DNA of 64,000 nt from Flavobacterium nitrogenifigens (GTDB lineage Bacteria; Bacteroidota; Bacteroidia; Flavobacteriales; Flavobacteriaceae). Made by a program: the position numbers and the translations under genes. Below are positions 29,515 to 45,233 of the stretch, piece by piece (positions within the stretch are counted from its first letter, which is position 1; each line of letters begins with the position of its first letter). Where the stretch lies: positions 62,001 to 126,000 of the forward strand of contig NZ_QJRI01000167.1 of assembly GCF_003254565.1 (NCBI RefSeq). Direction: 5' to 3'. The notes under the pieces were generated by a model that was not told the origin of the DNA, did not search any database, and saw only the letters and a list, made by a program, of their open reading frames with translations.

Positions 29515-29552
29515 AAAAAAAAAGCGTTCGCAATTGCGAACGCTTTTTTTTT
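29515..29552. terminator. Perfect palindromic terminator after DUF1508
   Basis: GCGTTCGC-AATT-GCGAACGC flanked by A and T runs forms a perfect stem usable from both directions. Confidence 0.92.
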
Positions 29553-40333: not shown

Positions 40334-41815
40334 CTAACTGTATTGATTTATAAACTGCTGTACAACAGTGTCTGTATTTTGATGTCGTTTCTCTTTTTCC
40401 AAAACTGTCGGTGGAGCACTTCGTTCCAAACAATCTTGTACAGCACAAGTTTCGCAAGTTACACCAACAATTCGTTTCACCAAAGGTTTCCCATCAATGA
40501 ATTTGAATTTCTTTTTCATCGTCGGATTTATTAAAATTCCAACCGAAATGCTTCTAATATAATTTTCTGCAAAAGGATCTTTTGTCGCCGATGAAAAAAC
40601 CAAATATTCGTTTCCGCTATTGGCATAACTCGAAATTTGAGCATCAAAAAAATGAGATTTGTTTTGTTTAATGGCCTCATCAATTGTTTTAACCGAAACC
40701 CATCTTCTGCAATAATGCTCGTTGGTTTCATTGGCATGTGGTTCCTGTTGGTGCGTGATGTGTAATTCTTTATTTATCTGGTAAAAATCAGAACCAATTT
40801 TATGGGATAATCTTAAAAAGAATAAGTTTTTTAGCTGAAAATCTTTTGGTAATAAATTGGTCAATCGCTGATAAAAAGATTCTGGCGAAACCTCAAAACT
40901 TTCAATTAGCTGGACAAATTCTTCTGGTTTCGGATTTTCATTTTCCAAAAAAGAATTGATTTTGTCTACCACTAATTTCCTCGGCAATAATAAAGCACCT
41001 GCAAAATAAGAGGCATAAAAATTATTTAAAACTTGGTCGAAATTTTCAAACTTAATCCAGCTGAAAGTCAACAGACGATCGGAAATTTTCAAATAATTAT
41101 AGGCGATTTCTTTAGCTAAAATAAAAGCTTTCTGTGGAGCGTCGAGTTCTGTAGAAAGCAATAAAGTTCTACTTTTTGGAACATAAATCGAACGCAAATC
41201 ATCTAAAGCTTCCTGATCTGTAAAAGCAATTTCTTTAATGTTGTATTCGTATTCTTCTTTTAAAATTGATTCCAGTTCTTCAACGCTGATTTTAGAATCC
41301 AAATTGATTTGAAATGACTTAGAAAACGTAATTACTTTTTCTTCTAAATCTTCAAAATAATTGCTGTGCGCTTCCTGATACGAGCGTAAAGCAGCTAAAA
41401 AGAAGCTCTCACGGCTTAAATTATAATGCTGTGCAATTTCGATAATGGTACTAATGAATGCATTGACTTTGGCGGGAGCATTCGCAATAATATCAATCAA
41501 ATCGGCTTCCTGAATTCCGAAAAGCTCTAGTGGAATTTCTTTTAAAATTCCTGATTTCAAGATTTCGCCAATAGGAGCGAGGTTGTTATCGAGTTTTAAA
41601 GACACCATTTGGTCGTAATTCACGTCCAAATGTTCGCATAAAAGCAAAATTTTATCGGTTTTGGGATATTTTTTTCCCTTTTCAATCTCGTTTAAATACG
41701 ATTTTGAAAGATTAGTCAGTTTGGCCAAGCCAAAAAGAGACAAGTTTTTTTGTGTACGAACTTGTTTCATTTTTAGCCCAAAAATCAGCTTTATATAGTC
41801 TTTTTCGATATCCAT
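40334..41815 (-). CDS. RamB/ScfR-like transcriptional regulator of the glyoxylate shunt
   Basis: 493 residues. An N-terminal XRE helix-turn-helix (~12-70: KNLSLFGLAKLTNLSKSYLN) is followed by an IrrE/ImmA-like middle that lacks the HExxH protease motif (KAFILAKEIAYNYL). The C-terminal domain resembles DUF2083 of short-chain fatty acyl-CoA regulators, with a Cys cluster C454, C457, C462 (CETCAVQDC). Divergent from aceB, as RamB-type regulators act on acetate and glyoxylate genes in actinobacteria. The ligand here is inferred. Confidence 0.85.
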   Translation of the reverse strand: MDIEKDYIKLIFGLKMKQVRTQKNLSLFGLAKLTNLSKSYLNEIEKGKKYPKTDKILLLCEHLDVNYDQMVSLKLDNNLAPIGEILKSGILKEIPLELFGIQEADLIDIIANAPAKVNAFISTIIEIAQHYNLSRESFFLAALRSYQEAHSNYFEDLEEKVITFSKSFQINLDSKISVEELESILKEEYEYNIKEIAFTDQEALDDLRSIYVPKSRTLLLSTELDAPQKAFILAKEIAYNYLKISDRLLTFSWIKFENFDQVLNNFYASYFAGALLLPRKLVVDKINSFLENENPKPEEFVQLIESFEVSPESFYQRLTNLLPKDFQLKNLFFLRLSHKIGSDFYQINKELHITHQQEPHANETNEHYCRRWVSVKTIDEAIKQNKSHFFDAQISSYANSGNEYLVFSSATKDPFAENYIRSISVGILINPTMKKKFKFIDGKPLVKRIVGVTCETCAVQDCLERSAPPTVLEKEKRHQNTDTVVQQFINQYS

Positions 41816-41819
41816 AATC

Positions 41820-41850
41820 CAAATGTAGGTAATCTAAAAATAATCGCCAA
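41820..41850 (-). promoter_or_regulatory. RamB-like gene promoter, possibly leaderless
   Basis: On the minus strand TTG (41850-41848), 20 nt, then TACATTTG (41827-41820) form a full consensus promoter. Only four bases (GATT) separate the -7 box from the ATG at 41815, so transcription would start at or within a base or two of the start codon. Confidence 0.65.
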
Positions 41851-41869
41851 AAAAATATTTTTAAAATTT

Positions 41870-41913
41870 AGCGAACGTTCGCTTGTTTTGTAAAAAACTT
41901 TTTTATAACATTG
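41870..41913 (+). promoter_or_regulatory. aceB promoter with 14-bp palindrome
   Basis: AGCGAACGTTCGCT (41870-41883) is a perfect 14-bp palindrome in the ramB-aceB divergent region. It directly abuts a TTG (41883-41885), which with a 20-nt spacer and TAACATTG (41906-41913, one mismatch to TAnnTTTG) gives a plausible aceB promoter. The position is what a class-II activator would need. Confidence 0.5.
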
Positions 41914-42024: not shown

Positions 42025-43626
42025 ATGAAAAACCAATTAGAGACCACTGAAATGGCTATAGAATTCCTAGCCGACAAAAAGCTTGCTTATCCAAAAATCT
42101 GGACAGAAGAAGCAACTGCGTTTATTATCGAATTGCACAAAAAATTCGAATCGCAAAGAAAATTATTGCTTTTGCAGAGGGAACAGAAACAAGTCACTTT
42201 TGATCAGGGAATCATGCCGGTTTTTATTCCAGAAACCAAAAGCATCAGAGAAAGTAATTGGACAGCTGGAGAAATTCCGAAAGATTTACAAGACAGAAGA
42301 GTAGAAATTACTGGACCGGTTGACCGAAAAATGATTATCAATGCTTTGAATTCTGGTGCTAAAACTTTTATGGCAGATTTTGAAGACAGCACTTCACCAA
42401 CCTGGCAAAACTTGATGGATGGACAAATGAATTTAATAGATGCCGTTAATAAAACCATCACATTTACTGATTTGGTTAAACAGAAGTCCTATCATTTAAA
42501 TGAAAAAACTGCAACATTGATTGTTCGTCCAAGAGGTTTGCATTTGCCAGAAAAGCATGTTTTGATTGAAGGAAAAGAGGTTTCAGGTTCTTTGGTAGAT
42601 TTTGGTTTGTATGTTTTTCATAATCATAAAAGACTTTTGGAAAACAATTCTGGACCGTATTTCTACATTCCAAAATTAGAACATTATCTGGAAGCAAGAT
42701 GGTGGAATACTGTAATTGATTTTACCGAGGATTATTTGAAGCTAGAAAGAGGAACGATAAAAGTGACTGTTTTAATTGAAACCATAACCGCAAGTTTTCA
42801 ATTGGATGAAATCATTTATGAATTAAAAGAGCATATCGTTGGCTTGAACTGCGGACGCTGGGATTATATTTTCTCTTACATTAAAAAGTTTAGAAAAAAT
42901 CCAAAATACATTGTTCCAGATCGTGATCAGGTAAATATGACTTCGCCTTTTATGAATGCGTATTCAAATCTAGTAATTCAAAGATGCCATAAACGAGGAA
43001 TTCATGCGATTGGCGGAATGGCTGCACAGATTCCGATTCGAAATAATGAAGAAGCAAATGCTGTCGCTTTCGCAAAAGTAAAAACCGATAAAGAGCGTGA
43101 AGTTCGAAACGGTCATGACGGAACTTGGGTGGCGCATCCAGATTTGGTTGCCATAGCAAAAGAAGTTTTTGATAAAGGAATGCCAACTCCAAATCAGATT
43201 CACGTAAAAAGAGAATATCGAAAAATTACAGAAACCGATTTAATCGAACCGCCAATTGGATTGATCACAGAAAATGGCGTTCGAAAAAACATCAACGTTG
43301 CGGTTTTGTACTTGGCTTCATGGCTAAACGGACAAGGCGCTGCTGCTTTGCATAATTTGATGGAAGATGCCGCAACAGCCGAAATTTCGAGATCACAATT
43401 GTGGCAATGGCTTCAGAATAAAGTGATTTTGGATAATGGCCGAAAATTGGATTTGGTGTATTATCATGAATTGGCTTTGGATGAATTTAGAAAACTCAAA
43501 GAAGAAGTAGGAGCAGAAAATCACGAAAAACAGCAATTTCCATTAGCTGAAAAATTGCTAGAAAGATTAGTTGTAAACCTGCATTTTGTGGATTTCCTTA
43601 CTCTTCCGTGTTATAAATATTTATAG
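42025..43626 (+). CDS. aceB: Malate synthase A
   Basis: 533 residues, the A-type malate synthase. Family marks are MADFEDSTSPTWQN, LNCGRWDYIFSYIKKF, HAIGGMAAQIPI, NGHDGTWVAHPDL and the catalytic-region LASWLNGQGAAALHNLMEDA. It condenses glyoxylate with acetyl-CoA to malate. Isocitrate lyase follows on the same strand after a 326-bp repeat-filled gap. No signal or truncation. Confidence 0.96.
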   Translation: MKNQLETTEMAIEFLADKKLAYPKIWTEEATAFIIELHKKFESQRKLLLLQREQKQVTFDQGIMPVFIPETKSIRESNWTAGEIPKDLQDRRVEITGPVDRKMIINALNSGAKTFMADFEDSTSPTWQNLMDGQMNLIDAVNKTITFTDLVKQKSYHLNEKTATLIVRPRGLHLPEKHVLIEGKEVSGSLVDFGLYVFHNHKRLLENNSGPYFYIPKLEHYLEARWWNTVIDFTEDYLKLERGTIKVTVLIETITASFQLDEIIYELKEHIVGLNCGRWDYIFSYIKKFRKNPKYIVPDRDQVNMTSPFMNAYSNLVIQRCHKRGIHAIGGMAAQIPIRNNEEANAVAFAKVKTDKEREVRNGHDGTWVAHPDLVAIAKEVFDKGMPTPNQIHVKREYRKITETDLIEPPIGLITENGVRKNINVAVLYLASWLNGQGAAALHNLMEDAATAEISRSQLWQWLQNKVILDNGRKLDLVYYHELALDEFRKLKEEVGAENHEKQQFPLAEKLLERLVVNLHFVDFLTLPCYKYL

Positions 43627-43634
43627 ACTTTTAA

Positions 43635-43703
43635 AATCTGCTCAATCTGCCAGATCTGTGGGCTAATATTTTTTTCTCGCAGATTTAGCAGATCAGGCAG
43701 ATA
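43635..43703. repeat. GCAGAT-type short palindrome
   Basis: AATCTGCTCAATCTGCCAGATCT on the left is partly complementary to CGCAGATTTAGCAGATCAGGCAGAT on the right. It is downstream of aceB and may act as its terminator. With the element at 43736-43875 it accounts for most of the aceB-aceA gap (43627-43952), in which I see no gene. Confidence 0.45.
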
Positions 43704-43735
43704 CAATGAAAATCAAACTTAGACTTAAATTGTTT

Positions 43736-43875
43736 AAACACATAGAAACATAGATTTTATTTTTTCTGTAAAAAGAGAAAAGAAAAAAACTGGTTTTTCA
43801 TGCATAGATAACTATGTGTATTGAAACAAGTGAAACGCCTTTAACCACAAAGTATAACTATGTTTCTATGTGTTT
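43736..43875 (+). repeat. MITE-like repeat with terminal inverted repeats, copy A
   Basis: Terminal arms at 43733-43753 and 43858-43878 form a 21-bp perfect inverted repeat (core ACACATAGAAACATAG). Inside lies a 24-nt core (43820-43843, starts ATTGAAACAAGTG) that recurs exactly, inverted, at 46379-46402. The second copy is 46347-46492. Confidence 0.7.
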
Positions 43876-43952
43876 AAAATCTTGGTTCAAACTGAAAACT
43901 GAGAACCGAGACTGAAAACTTTATTAACGAACCACTTTAACTAAACTATATT

Positions 43953-45233
43953 ATGAAAACAACAGAAGACAGAATTCAGGAATTGATTAACGATTGGATT
44001 ACGAACCCAAGATGGAAAGGCGTTGAGCGTCCTTACACTGCGAGTGAAGTAGTAACGCTTCAAGGGTCTTATAAAATTGAGCATTCTATTGCGAAAATGG
44101 GTGCAGAGAAATTATGGAGAAAGTTAAAAAGTCAGGATTATGTTGCGGGTTTGGGAGCGTTGACTGGAAATCAGGCGATTCAGGAAGTCGATGCGGGTTT
44201 AGAAGCGATTTATTTAAGCGGATGGCAGGTTGCGGCTGATGCAAACTTGGCAGGAGAAATGTATCCTGATCAATCGCTTTATCCAGTAAATAGCGTTCCG
44301 ATGGTGGTTAAAAAAATCAACAACGCTTTATTGCGTGCTGATCAGATTCAGACTGTAAATAATATTGAAGATAAAAAAGATTATTTAGTACCAATTGTAG
44401 CCGATGCCGAAGCGGGTTTTGGCGGAAACCTAAATGCTTTCGAATTAATGAAATCAATGATTGAAGCGGGAGCTTCTGGAGTTCACTTTGAAGATCAGTT
44501 AAGTTCTGCAAAAAAGTGTGGACACTTGGGCGGAAAAGTTTTAGTACCAACTCAAGAAGCGATTAACAAATTGATTGCAGCGCGTTTAGCTTCAGATGTT
44601 ATGGGAATTTCGACTTTAATAGTTGCTCGAACAGATGCTGATGCAGCTAATTTATTAACAAGCGATGCCGATCCAAGAGACAGAAAATTTCTAACAGGAG
44701 AAAAAACGGCGGAAGGCTTTTTCTACGTAAAAAACGGAATCGACCAAGGAATTGCAAGAGGTTTGAGTTACGCGCCGTATGCCGATTTAATTTGGATGGA
44801 AACCAGTAATCCCGATTTGGATTATGCGAGAAAATTTGCGAAAGCAATGAAAAAAGAATTTCCAGATAAAATGCTGGCGTATAATTGTTCTCCGTCTTTC
44901 AATTGGGCTGCGAAATTATCAGTGGCAGAAATGGAAACGTTTAGGGAAGATTTGGCTGCAATGGGTTATAGTTTCCAGTTCATTACTTTGGCGGGATTCC
45001 ATGCTTTGAACACAAGTATGTTCGAATTATCTAAAGCCTATAAAGAACGAGGAATGGCTGGGTATTCTGAATTGCAGGAAAGAGAATTCGCTTTACAGAA
45101 AAACGGATTCAGAGCAGTAAAACACCAGGCTTTTGTTGGAACTTCTTATTTTGATGCCGTTCAGAACACAGTAATGTTAGGAAAATCAGCAATAACGGCG
45201 ATGGAACATTCTACAGAGGTTGAGCAATTTTAA
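43953..45233 (+). CDS. aceA: Isocitrate lyase
   Basis: 426 residues. The catalytic KKCGH motif places the nucleophile/acid at C189; [19 protein letters not shown] and YNCSPSFNW are further hallmarks. It cleaves isocitrate to glyoxylate and succinate, and with aceB makes the glyoxylate shunt for growth on acetate or fatty acids. A terminator follows 8 bp after the stop. An independent promoter is not clear in the gap before it. Confidence 0.97.

Follow-up and report, generated by a model that had tools for sequence, protein, structure and literature searches.

The question raised by this locus is what role is played by a short perfect palindrome that stands between aceB, a malate synthase gene, and the divergently oriented gene of a RamB-like regulator, in a window of 64,000 nucleotides (the whole stretch of DNA analysed) from Flavobacterium nitrogenifigens. 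The evidence assembled below leads to the verdict that the palindrome is a genuine and strongly conserved putative operator which can be generalized across the phylum, and that it represents a variant of ScfR/RamB-type control.

The divergent region between the regulator gene and aceB

The initial annotation reported a perfect 14-bp palindrome in this divergent region, and this is borne out: the 209-bp gap between the two genes contains the 14-mer AGCGAACGTTCGCT together with the elements of two candidate promoters. The promoter elements are consensus matches, and the transcription starts are predicted rather than mapped. The features are as follows.

40334..41815, minus strand: regulator coding sequence, 493 aa, with HTH_3, a Peptidase_M78-like region and a weak ScfRs domain
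41820..41827, minus strand: probable regulator -7 element TACATTTG (minus-strand reading), a consensus match
41843..41848, minus strand: degenerate half-site ATCGCC (GGCGAT on the minus strand), presumably auxiliary in function
41870..41883, no strand assigned: putative operator palindrome AGCGAACGTTCGCT, from sequence and conservation
41883..41885, plus strand: aceB -33 TTG, its first T shared with the palindrome
41906..41913, plus strand: probable aceB -7 element TAACATTG, a consensus match 20 bp past the TTG
42025..43626, plus strand: aceB, malate synthase A (TIGR01344, 760.6 bits against a cut-off of 594.5)
43953..45233, plus strand: aceA, isocitrate lyase, from a family search

The palindrome had been described as abutting the aceB -33 element; the contact is real, but the two do more than abut, since T41883 is both the final base of the palindrome and the first base of the TTG. 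The TTG and TAACATTG make up a predicted Bacteroidota-type -33/-7 promoter, and the centre of the palindrome falls at about -42 relative to the predicted aceB start. On the minus strand, the candidate promoter of the regulator gene consists of TTTG (41851-41848), a 20-bp spacer and TACATTTG (41827-41820). The ATCGCC half-site lies at a distance of 35 bp from the dyad's right half and touches the -33 TTTG of the regulator (the reverse complement of 41848-41851).

A palindrome of this kind is uninformative by itself, because the window contains 10 perfect 14-bp palindromes where 8.0 are expected; it is conservation that exceeds chance. The particular 14-mer occurs exactly once in the 5.4-Mb genome (the expectation for an exact match is 0.004 per genome), and only one further genomic site, C66, located within a long open frame, comes within two mismatches of it. 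Another of the 14-bp palindromes in the window, TTCGCAATTGCGAA at 29527-29540, is built from the operator half-sites, everted and 4 bp apart.

The sequence could also be read at the level of RNA, as an intrinsic terminator or leader hairpin with the stem AGCGA/TCGCT followed by T-rich DNA, and a scan for terminators does return one terminator-like site where 0.1 is expected. The palindrome is upstream of both predicted starts, however, so that neither divergent transcript would include it; the 5-bp stem is weak, and the AGCGTAC variants described below break one of its pairs. This reading is highly improbable and was rejected on the position of the palindrome.

Whether the downstream gene aceA would come under the same control can be considered from the gap between aceB and aceA (43627-43952). 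A search of this gap for GCGAA and TTCGC found neither, and aceA is therefore predicted either to be read through from aceB or to lie outside the control of the putative operator. The same gap holds a perfect 21-bp inverted repeat, TTTAAACACATAGAAACATAG with its reverse complement CTATGTTTCTATGTGTTTAAA, as well as GCAGAT/ATCTGC repeats, and these repeats resemble dispersed intergenic repeats.

Conservation of the palindrome and its co-occurrence with the regulator

Among 299 genomes of Flavobacteriaceae, the exact 14-mer is found in 42, with one copy in each, and the reversed control pattern in none. The regulator has strong matches in 45 of these genomes (74 genomes matched it, but 29 of these gave weak HTH-type matches of about 19-28 bits and were scored as regulator-less), and aceB has strong matches in 43, the weak match of G131 at 23.5 bits having been excluded from 44. 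By coordinates, all 42 copies of the 14-mer lie between the regulator gene and aceB, and the same 42 genomes are those that have both genes. The orthologous intergenic regions, in which the initial annotation had proposed to look for conservation, thus bear the palindrome out: of 44 genomes in which the regulator's N-terminal part is present, 42 carry the exact 14-mer and the remaining two retain its 10-bp core (G013, which has a C-terminal regulator fragment alone and no site, is omitted from this count), while the exact 14-mer occurs in 0 of 254 regulator-less genomes. The corresponding Fisher p is about 4e-48, uncorrected for relatedness.

It must then be asked whether the site belongs to the neighbouring regulator or to some other, global regulator of aceB, in which case the adjacent gene would be incidental. 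Palindromes are common in AT-rich DNA, which leaves some room for the latter, and yet the occurrence of just one copy in each of the 42 genomes is unlike the distribution expected of a global regulator, and the two genes can be told apart where one of them is missing. G289 has aceB (54% identical) and lacks both the regulator and the site. Conversely, G038 and G261, which belong to one genus, have the regulator with no aceB hit, and in them the core CGAACGTTCG is kept and has moved to a position 23 bp ahead of the regulator start, so that the site goes with the regulator rather than with aceB. Together with the recurrence of the match ahead of the regulator throughout the phylum, these cases make a global regulator very unlikely, and argue from comparative sequence that the palindrome is, with high probability, the operator of the neighbouring regulator. 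The regulators of G038 and G261 (loci L280 and L281) lie near an arginase-family gene, matched by eye at L281, and a GNAT gene is also present at L280.

Conservation alone could in principle reflect shared ancestry or chance. All 80 Flavobacterium loci have the site, which is weak evidence when taken alone because these are nearest relatives with regulators 84-99% identical. Regulators of only 55-64% identity nevertheless retain 14 of 14 palindrome bases in intergenic DNA that otherwise diverges, and the phylum-wide matches described next are far outside what shuffled sequence produces; the probability left to ancestry or chance is close to negligible, and a chance palindrome was rejected on conservation, ordinary as the palindrome alone may be.

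A profile built from 23 regulators of Flavobacteriaceae was run at a threshold of E 1e-20 on 395 genomes of the phylum, and it gave hits at 71 places in 70 genomes. Of these places 68 were analysed, with regulator starts set by hand and with G422, G526 and G645 left out (the last two being partial matches). In the 300 bp upstream of the regulator, AGCGAANNTTCGCT was matched 12/12 at 48 loci and at best 11/12 at another 12, so that 60 of 68 loci reach at least 11/12, as against 0 at 12/12 and 3 at 11/12 in 3400 dinucleotide shuffles. The site rule across the phylum is AGCGAA-N2-TTCGCT. The central dinucleotide in the 60 sites is CG in 25, AT in 17, AA in 6, TA and TT in 4 each, AC in 3 and AG in 1, and outside the order of the window it is mostly AT, AA, TA or TT. 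The exact 14-mer is accordingly not invariant, even in the genus of the window: 17 regulator loci of that genus in the phylum set comprise 10 with the 14-mer, 6 with AGCGTACGTTCGCT and 1 with TGCGAACGTTCGCT, and among 121 genomes sampled from the genus without regard to neighbouring genes, 43 have the site, as the 14-mer in 30 and as AGCGTACGTTCGCT in 13.

The rule has exceptions and a background. Seven of the 48 loci scanned outside Flavobacteriaceae have no site (L170, L177, L179, L180, L190, L203 and L210), although at L179 one is present at a greater distance from the regulator. Genome-wide, the exact 12-base pattern is found in 58 of 70 regulator-bearing genomes (in G432, at least, it lies away from the regulator) and is absent from the other 12; it is also found in 68 of 325 regulator-less genomes, a sizeable chance background which makes single distal sites untrustworthy. 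One genome of family f5, G359, has five AGCGAANNTTCGCT sites on several contigs, all with AC/GT at the centre, and no regulator match at E 1e-20; these sites may be a repeat element or may belong to a diverged regulator.

Promoter geometry, half-site register and the predicted regulon

The geometry of the divergent region bears on how the regulator might act. For the counts that follow, identical regions were merged, giving 37 regions from Flavobacteriaceae (loci L019 and L029, which lack the 14-mer, were excluded) and, for the two remaining groups, 44 and 40 sites. The aceB -7 element (TAnn[AT]TTG) lies 22 bp past the palindrome in 30 of the 37 regions and 18-22 bp past it in 34. In 31 the palindrome runs directly into the TTG, which has been lost in L006, L008, L026, L032, L122 and L131, and a match to a regulator-type -7 element starts 50-52 bp to the left of the palindrome in 33. 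At loci outside Flavobacteriaceae that have the site, the TTG begins at the last T of the palindrome in 25 of 41; at L175, L188, L194 and L196-L198 the fused TTG reads TTGACA, and some deeper lineages combine the fusion to TTGACA with a half-site within the spacer.

The palindrome is also accompanied by further half-sites in a regular register. Within 80 bp, 50 of the 54 extra half-sites in the 37 regions fall at absolute offsets of 16-19 or 33-37; GCGAA half-sites occur at -34 to -36 in 30 regions and at -17/-18 in 20, and 4 of the 54 lie elsewhere. Thirty regions have an outer half-site, and it reads TTTGCGAA in 21 of them. The register positions of the window itself (L003) contain no GCGAA half-site, and offset -35 in the 80 Flavobacterium loci reads ATCGCC in 67 and CTCGCC in 1 (68/80). 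Outside Flavobacteriaceae, 25 half-sites occupy the 8 positions at offsets 16-19, partly on the side of the target gene, compared with 45 over about 142 positions elsewhere, and the everted arrangement TTCGC-N5-GCGAA, which would be the expected product of two adjacent dyads spaced 17 bp apart, is found near several regulators. Distal sites do not share the register, since 1 of their 31 extra half-sites falls at 16-19, and the array is therefore apparently a property of the region around the regulator gene. Two loci from the genus of the window, L154 and L155, have an operator whose left half is AGCGTAC and also have TACGC near the regulator promoter, three steps along the register at -53/-52, possibly through a joint change of half-sites.

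A mechanism can be proposed from this geometry. The perfect dyad AGCGAA-N2-TTCGCT (O1) would be the main operator and would be bound by a dimer of the regulator. The imperfect half-sites, which run on at 17-18-bp steps in the direction of the promoter of the regulator gene, would take up further subunits, and both promoters would then be covered by a tetramer or by two dimers. Because O1 is placed on the aceB -33 element, and because occupancy of the array would extend over the -33 and -7 elements of the regulator gene, both genes would be repressed by default, a reading that is rather likely if the palindrome is indeed the operator of the regulator. Binding of an acyl-CoA close to a [4Fe-4S] cluster may then relieve the block on aceB or convert it to activation, as is reported for the RamB of Paracoccus. 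As to the sign of control, the best reading is that the regulator represses its own gene and either represses aceB or, when liganded, activates it.

The same operator and regulator could serve mainly to activate aceB, with a liganded dimer at about -42 contacting RNA polymerase and little repression. The centre of the palindrome lies near -42 of the predicted aceB start, which is also a classical class II activator position, and the TTG after the palindrome has been lost in 6 of the 37 regions. The RamB of Paracoccus, moreover, is an activator of ms-icl on acetate and needs no ligand to bind DNA (excerpts of PMC10370305). Occlusion is favoured, however, by the fusion of the TTG to the palindrome in 31 regions and the constant 22 bp to the -7 element in 30, by the TTGACA fusions with a spacer half-site in deeper lineages, and by the position of several distal sites close to start codons. 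A mainly activating role is a possibility of less than even weight.

A search for the site in 49 of the phylum's 70 genomes that bear the regulator yielded 84 sites as against 11 matches to the reversed control, with at least one site in 45 of the 49. The gene sets they front are coherent in some families. In four genomes of family f22, all 12 sites lie at four targets: the aconitase AcnA (3, by NCBIfam), SdhC-SdhA (2, one scanned and the other read by eye), the regulator-aceB region (3) and a gene of 409-421 aa (4, three of them scanned with no Pfam hit and the fourth read by eye) which adjoins a sodium:solute symporter in G405 and G398. Of the 11 sites in G468 and G333, from family f5, 8 stand before genes for acyl-CoA dehydrogenases, FadB-like proteins, enoyl-CoA hydratase or ETF, and the remaining three are at NMO, at an Fe-S protein and at a place with no assignment. 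All five sites in three genomes of family f9 are at the regulator-aceB region or at PEP carboxykinase, and family f10 has two sites at dihydroxy-acid dehydratase, one at the regulator and one with no assignment. In families f48 and f30, the sites other than those of the regulator are mostly at unrelated or unassigned genes or inside frames, and form no coherent set. A start codon, chosen mechanically, follows several of the distal sites within 40 bp. The neighbours of the regulator vary as well: by eye, it adjoins other genes in several lineages, being divergent from an acyl-CoA synthetase-like gene at L183-L186, L191 and L195 and from an adenylate kinase-like (adk-like) start at L202, L204, L207 and L209, in deep lineages.

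The predicted regulon in a Flavobacterium-type genome would thus consist of one divergent region, and the best explanation of the distal sites elsewhere in the phylum is that the same site putatively serves genes of beta-oxidation, of the TCA cycle and acetate metabolism, or of gluconeogenesis as well. The broadest reading, which the evidence tilts toward slightly, is that the regulator, throughout its range from Flavobacteriaceae to remote lineages of the phylum, switches fatty-acid, acetate and glyoxylate metabolism by sensing acyl-CoA; that it would use one operator code, GCGAA-N2-TTCGC-N5 repeats at a register of 17-18 bp, joined directly to the -33/-35 element of Bacteroidota-type (TTG...TAnnTTTG) or TTGACA promoters; and that its regulon has shrunk to a single divergent operator in Flavobacteriaceae.

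If this is right, one sequence rule would predict acetate and fatty-acid regulons over much of the Bacteroidota, and the putative operator makes the control of acetate and fatty-acid use in this phylum testable. A non-exhaustive search of accessible papers turned up neither a regulator nor an operator for the glyoxylate shunt in Flavobacterium or Bacteroidetes, and searches on Dokdonia and on Bacteroidetes regulons found nothing on the present regulator. The glyoxylate shunt of Dokdonia MED134, a proteorhodopsin flavobacterium, is reported in excerpts of PMC9040609 to be light-responsive, and the regulator would, if the reading above is right, be a possible candidate there.

The regulator and its known relatives

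The regulator has an HTH_3 domain at residues 16-68 (40 bits against a cut-off of 23), as found at the N-terminus of PF09856 regulators, followed by a degenerate IrrE/Peptidase_M78-like region at 207-319, in whose sequence no HExxH occurs, and a weak C-terminal ScfRs match at 378-472. The Pfam ScfRs model (PF09856) scores 20.4 bits, or 23.2 in the genome search, against a cut-off of 24, and 22 of 23 regulators from Flavobacteriaceae match it at E up to 0.01; the protein is therefore named ScfR/IsaR-like rather than a Pfam member. A cysteine signature that is shared with the ScfR/IsaR acyl-CoA regulators, C369 with C454-X2-C457-X4-C462, is invariant in 23 of 23 of these proteins, and the same pattern, with the fourth cysteine 83-91 residues ahead, is present at 12 of 12 further loci examined. 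The spacing would place C369 in a GAF-like domain. PDB sequence searches matched HTH domains only, with no solved relative for the C-terminal part, and an AlphaFold2 model, with a mean pLDDT of 41.2 from a shallow alignment of 44 sequences (the window and 43 of the 80 Flavobacterium loci), was unusable.

The HTH is nearly invariant across Flavobacteriaceae, and its recognition helix is similar throughout the phylum (6 of 55 rows in this comparison yielded no helix). Lys38 is paired with a CG operator centre in 11 of 11 f1/f2 rows, and V, I, A or L stands at this position in most others; L189, with a CG centre and Pro, is an exception, and the whole correlation tracks phylogeny.

The best reading of these features is that the protein probably represents a Bacteroidota branch of the ScfR/IsaR-like (PrpR/RamB-like) acyl-CoA regulators. 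The earlier description of it as RamB-like holds in this general sense and does not extend to membership of the RamB equivalog (NF038139), which was rejected at 58.7 bits against a cut-off of 700. Nor is the equivalog's operator, A(A/G)AACTTTGCAAA, matched by the dyad AGCGAA-N2-TTCGCT; the outer half-site alone resembles a known box.

Among known systems, the sites of family f5 at acyl-CoA dehydrogenases, FadB-like proteins and ETF recall FadR-type control of fatty-acid degradation, although FadR belongs to a protein family unrelated to the present regulator. The remaining comparisons draw on excerpts of the papers cited. The RamB of Corynebacterium glutamicum is likewise a regulator of aceA and aceB, mostly a repressor although it activates pstSCAB, and its site is unlike the operator found here (PMC4448153).

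A further comparison is with PrpR and RamB of M. tuberculosis (PMC6765138). The [4Fe-4S] ligands of PrpR, C363 with C447, C450 and C455, correspond to C369 with C454, C457 and C462 in the present regulator, with 84 residues between the first and second cysteines as against 85 here, and both proteins have an IrrE-like region with no HExxH. The 17-bp site of PrpR, TTTGCAAA-N-TTTGCgAA, differs from GCGAA-N2-TTCGC with its A/T cap. The contrast with TTTGCAAA-type sites drawn in the initial annotation is nevertheless weaker than it seemed, since the reported mycobacterial PrpR/RamB box TTTGC(A/G)AA is the outer half-site TTTGCGAA of 21 of 30 regions.

A likeness also exists with RamB of Paracoccus denitrificans, a class 2 member of the ScfR family, whose gene is likewise divergent from malate synthase and isocitrate lyase genes, with paired boxes at a fixed spacing in the divergent region (PMC10370305). 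There the site consists of two near-identical boxes with an 18-bp spacer, whereas here it is a perfect dyad with half-sites at 17-18 bp. The same excerpts report that this RamB represses ms-icl on succinate, that its ligand originates in the ethylmalonyl-CoA pathway and that CoA esters shift it from tetramer to dimer; its reported [4Fe-4S] cluster and binding of CoA esters agree with the cysteine signature of the present regulator.
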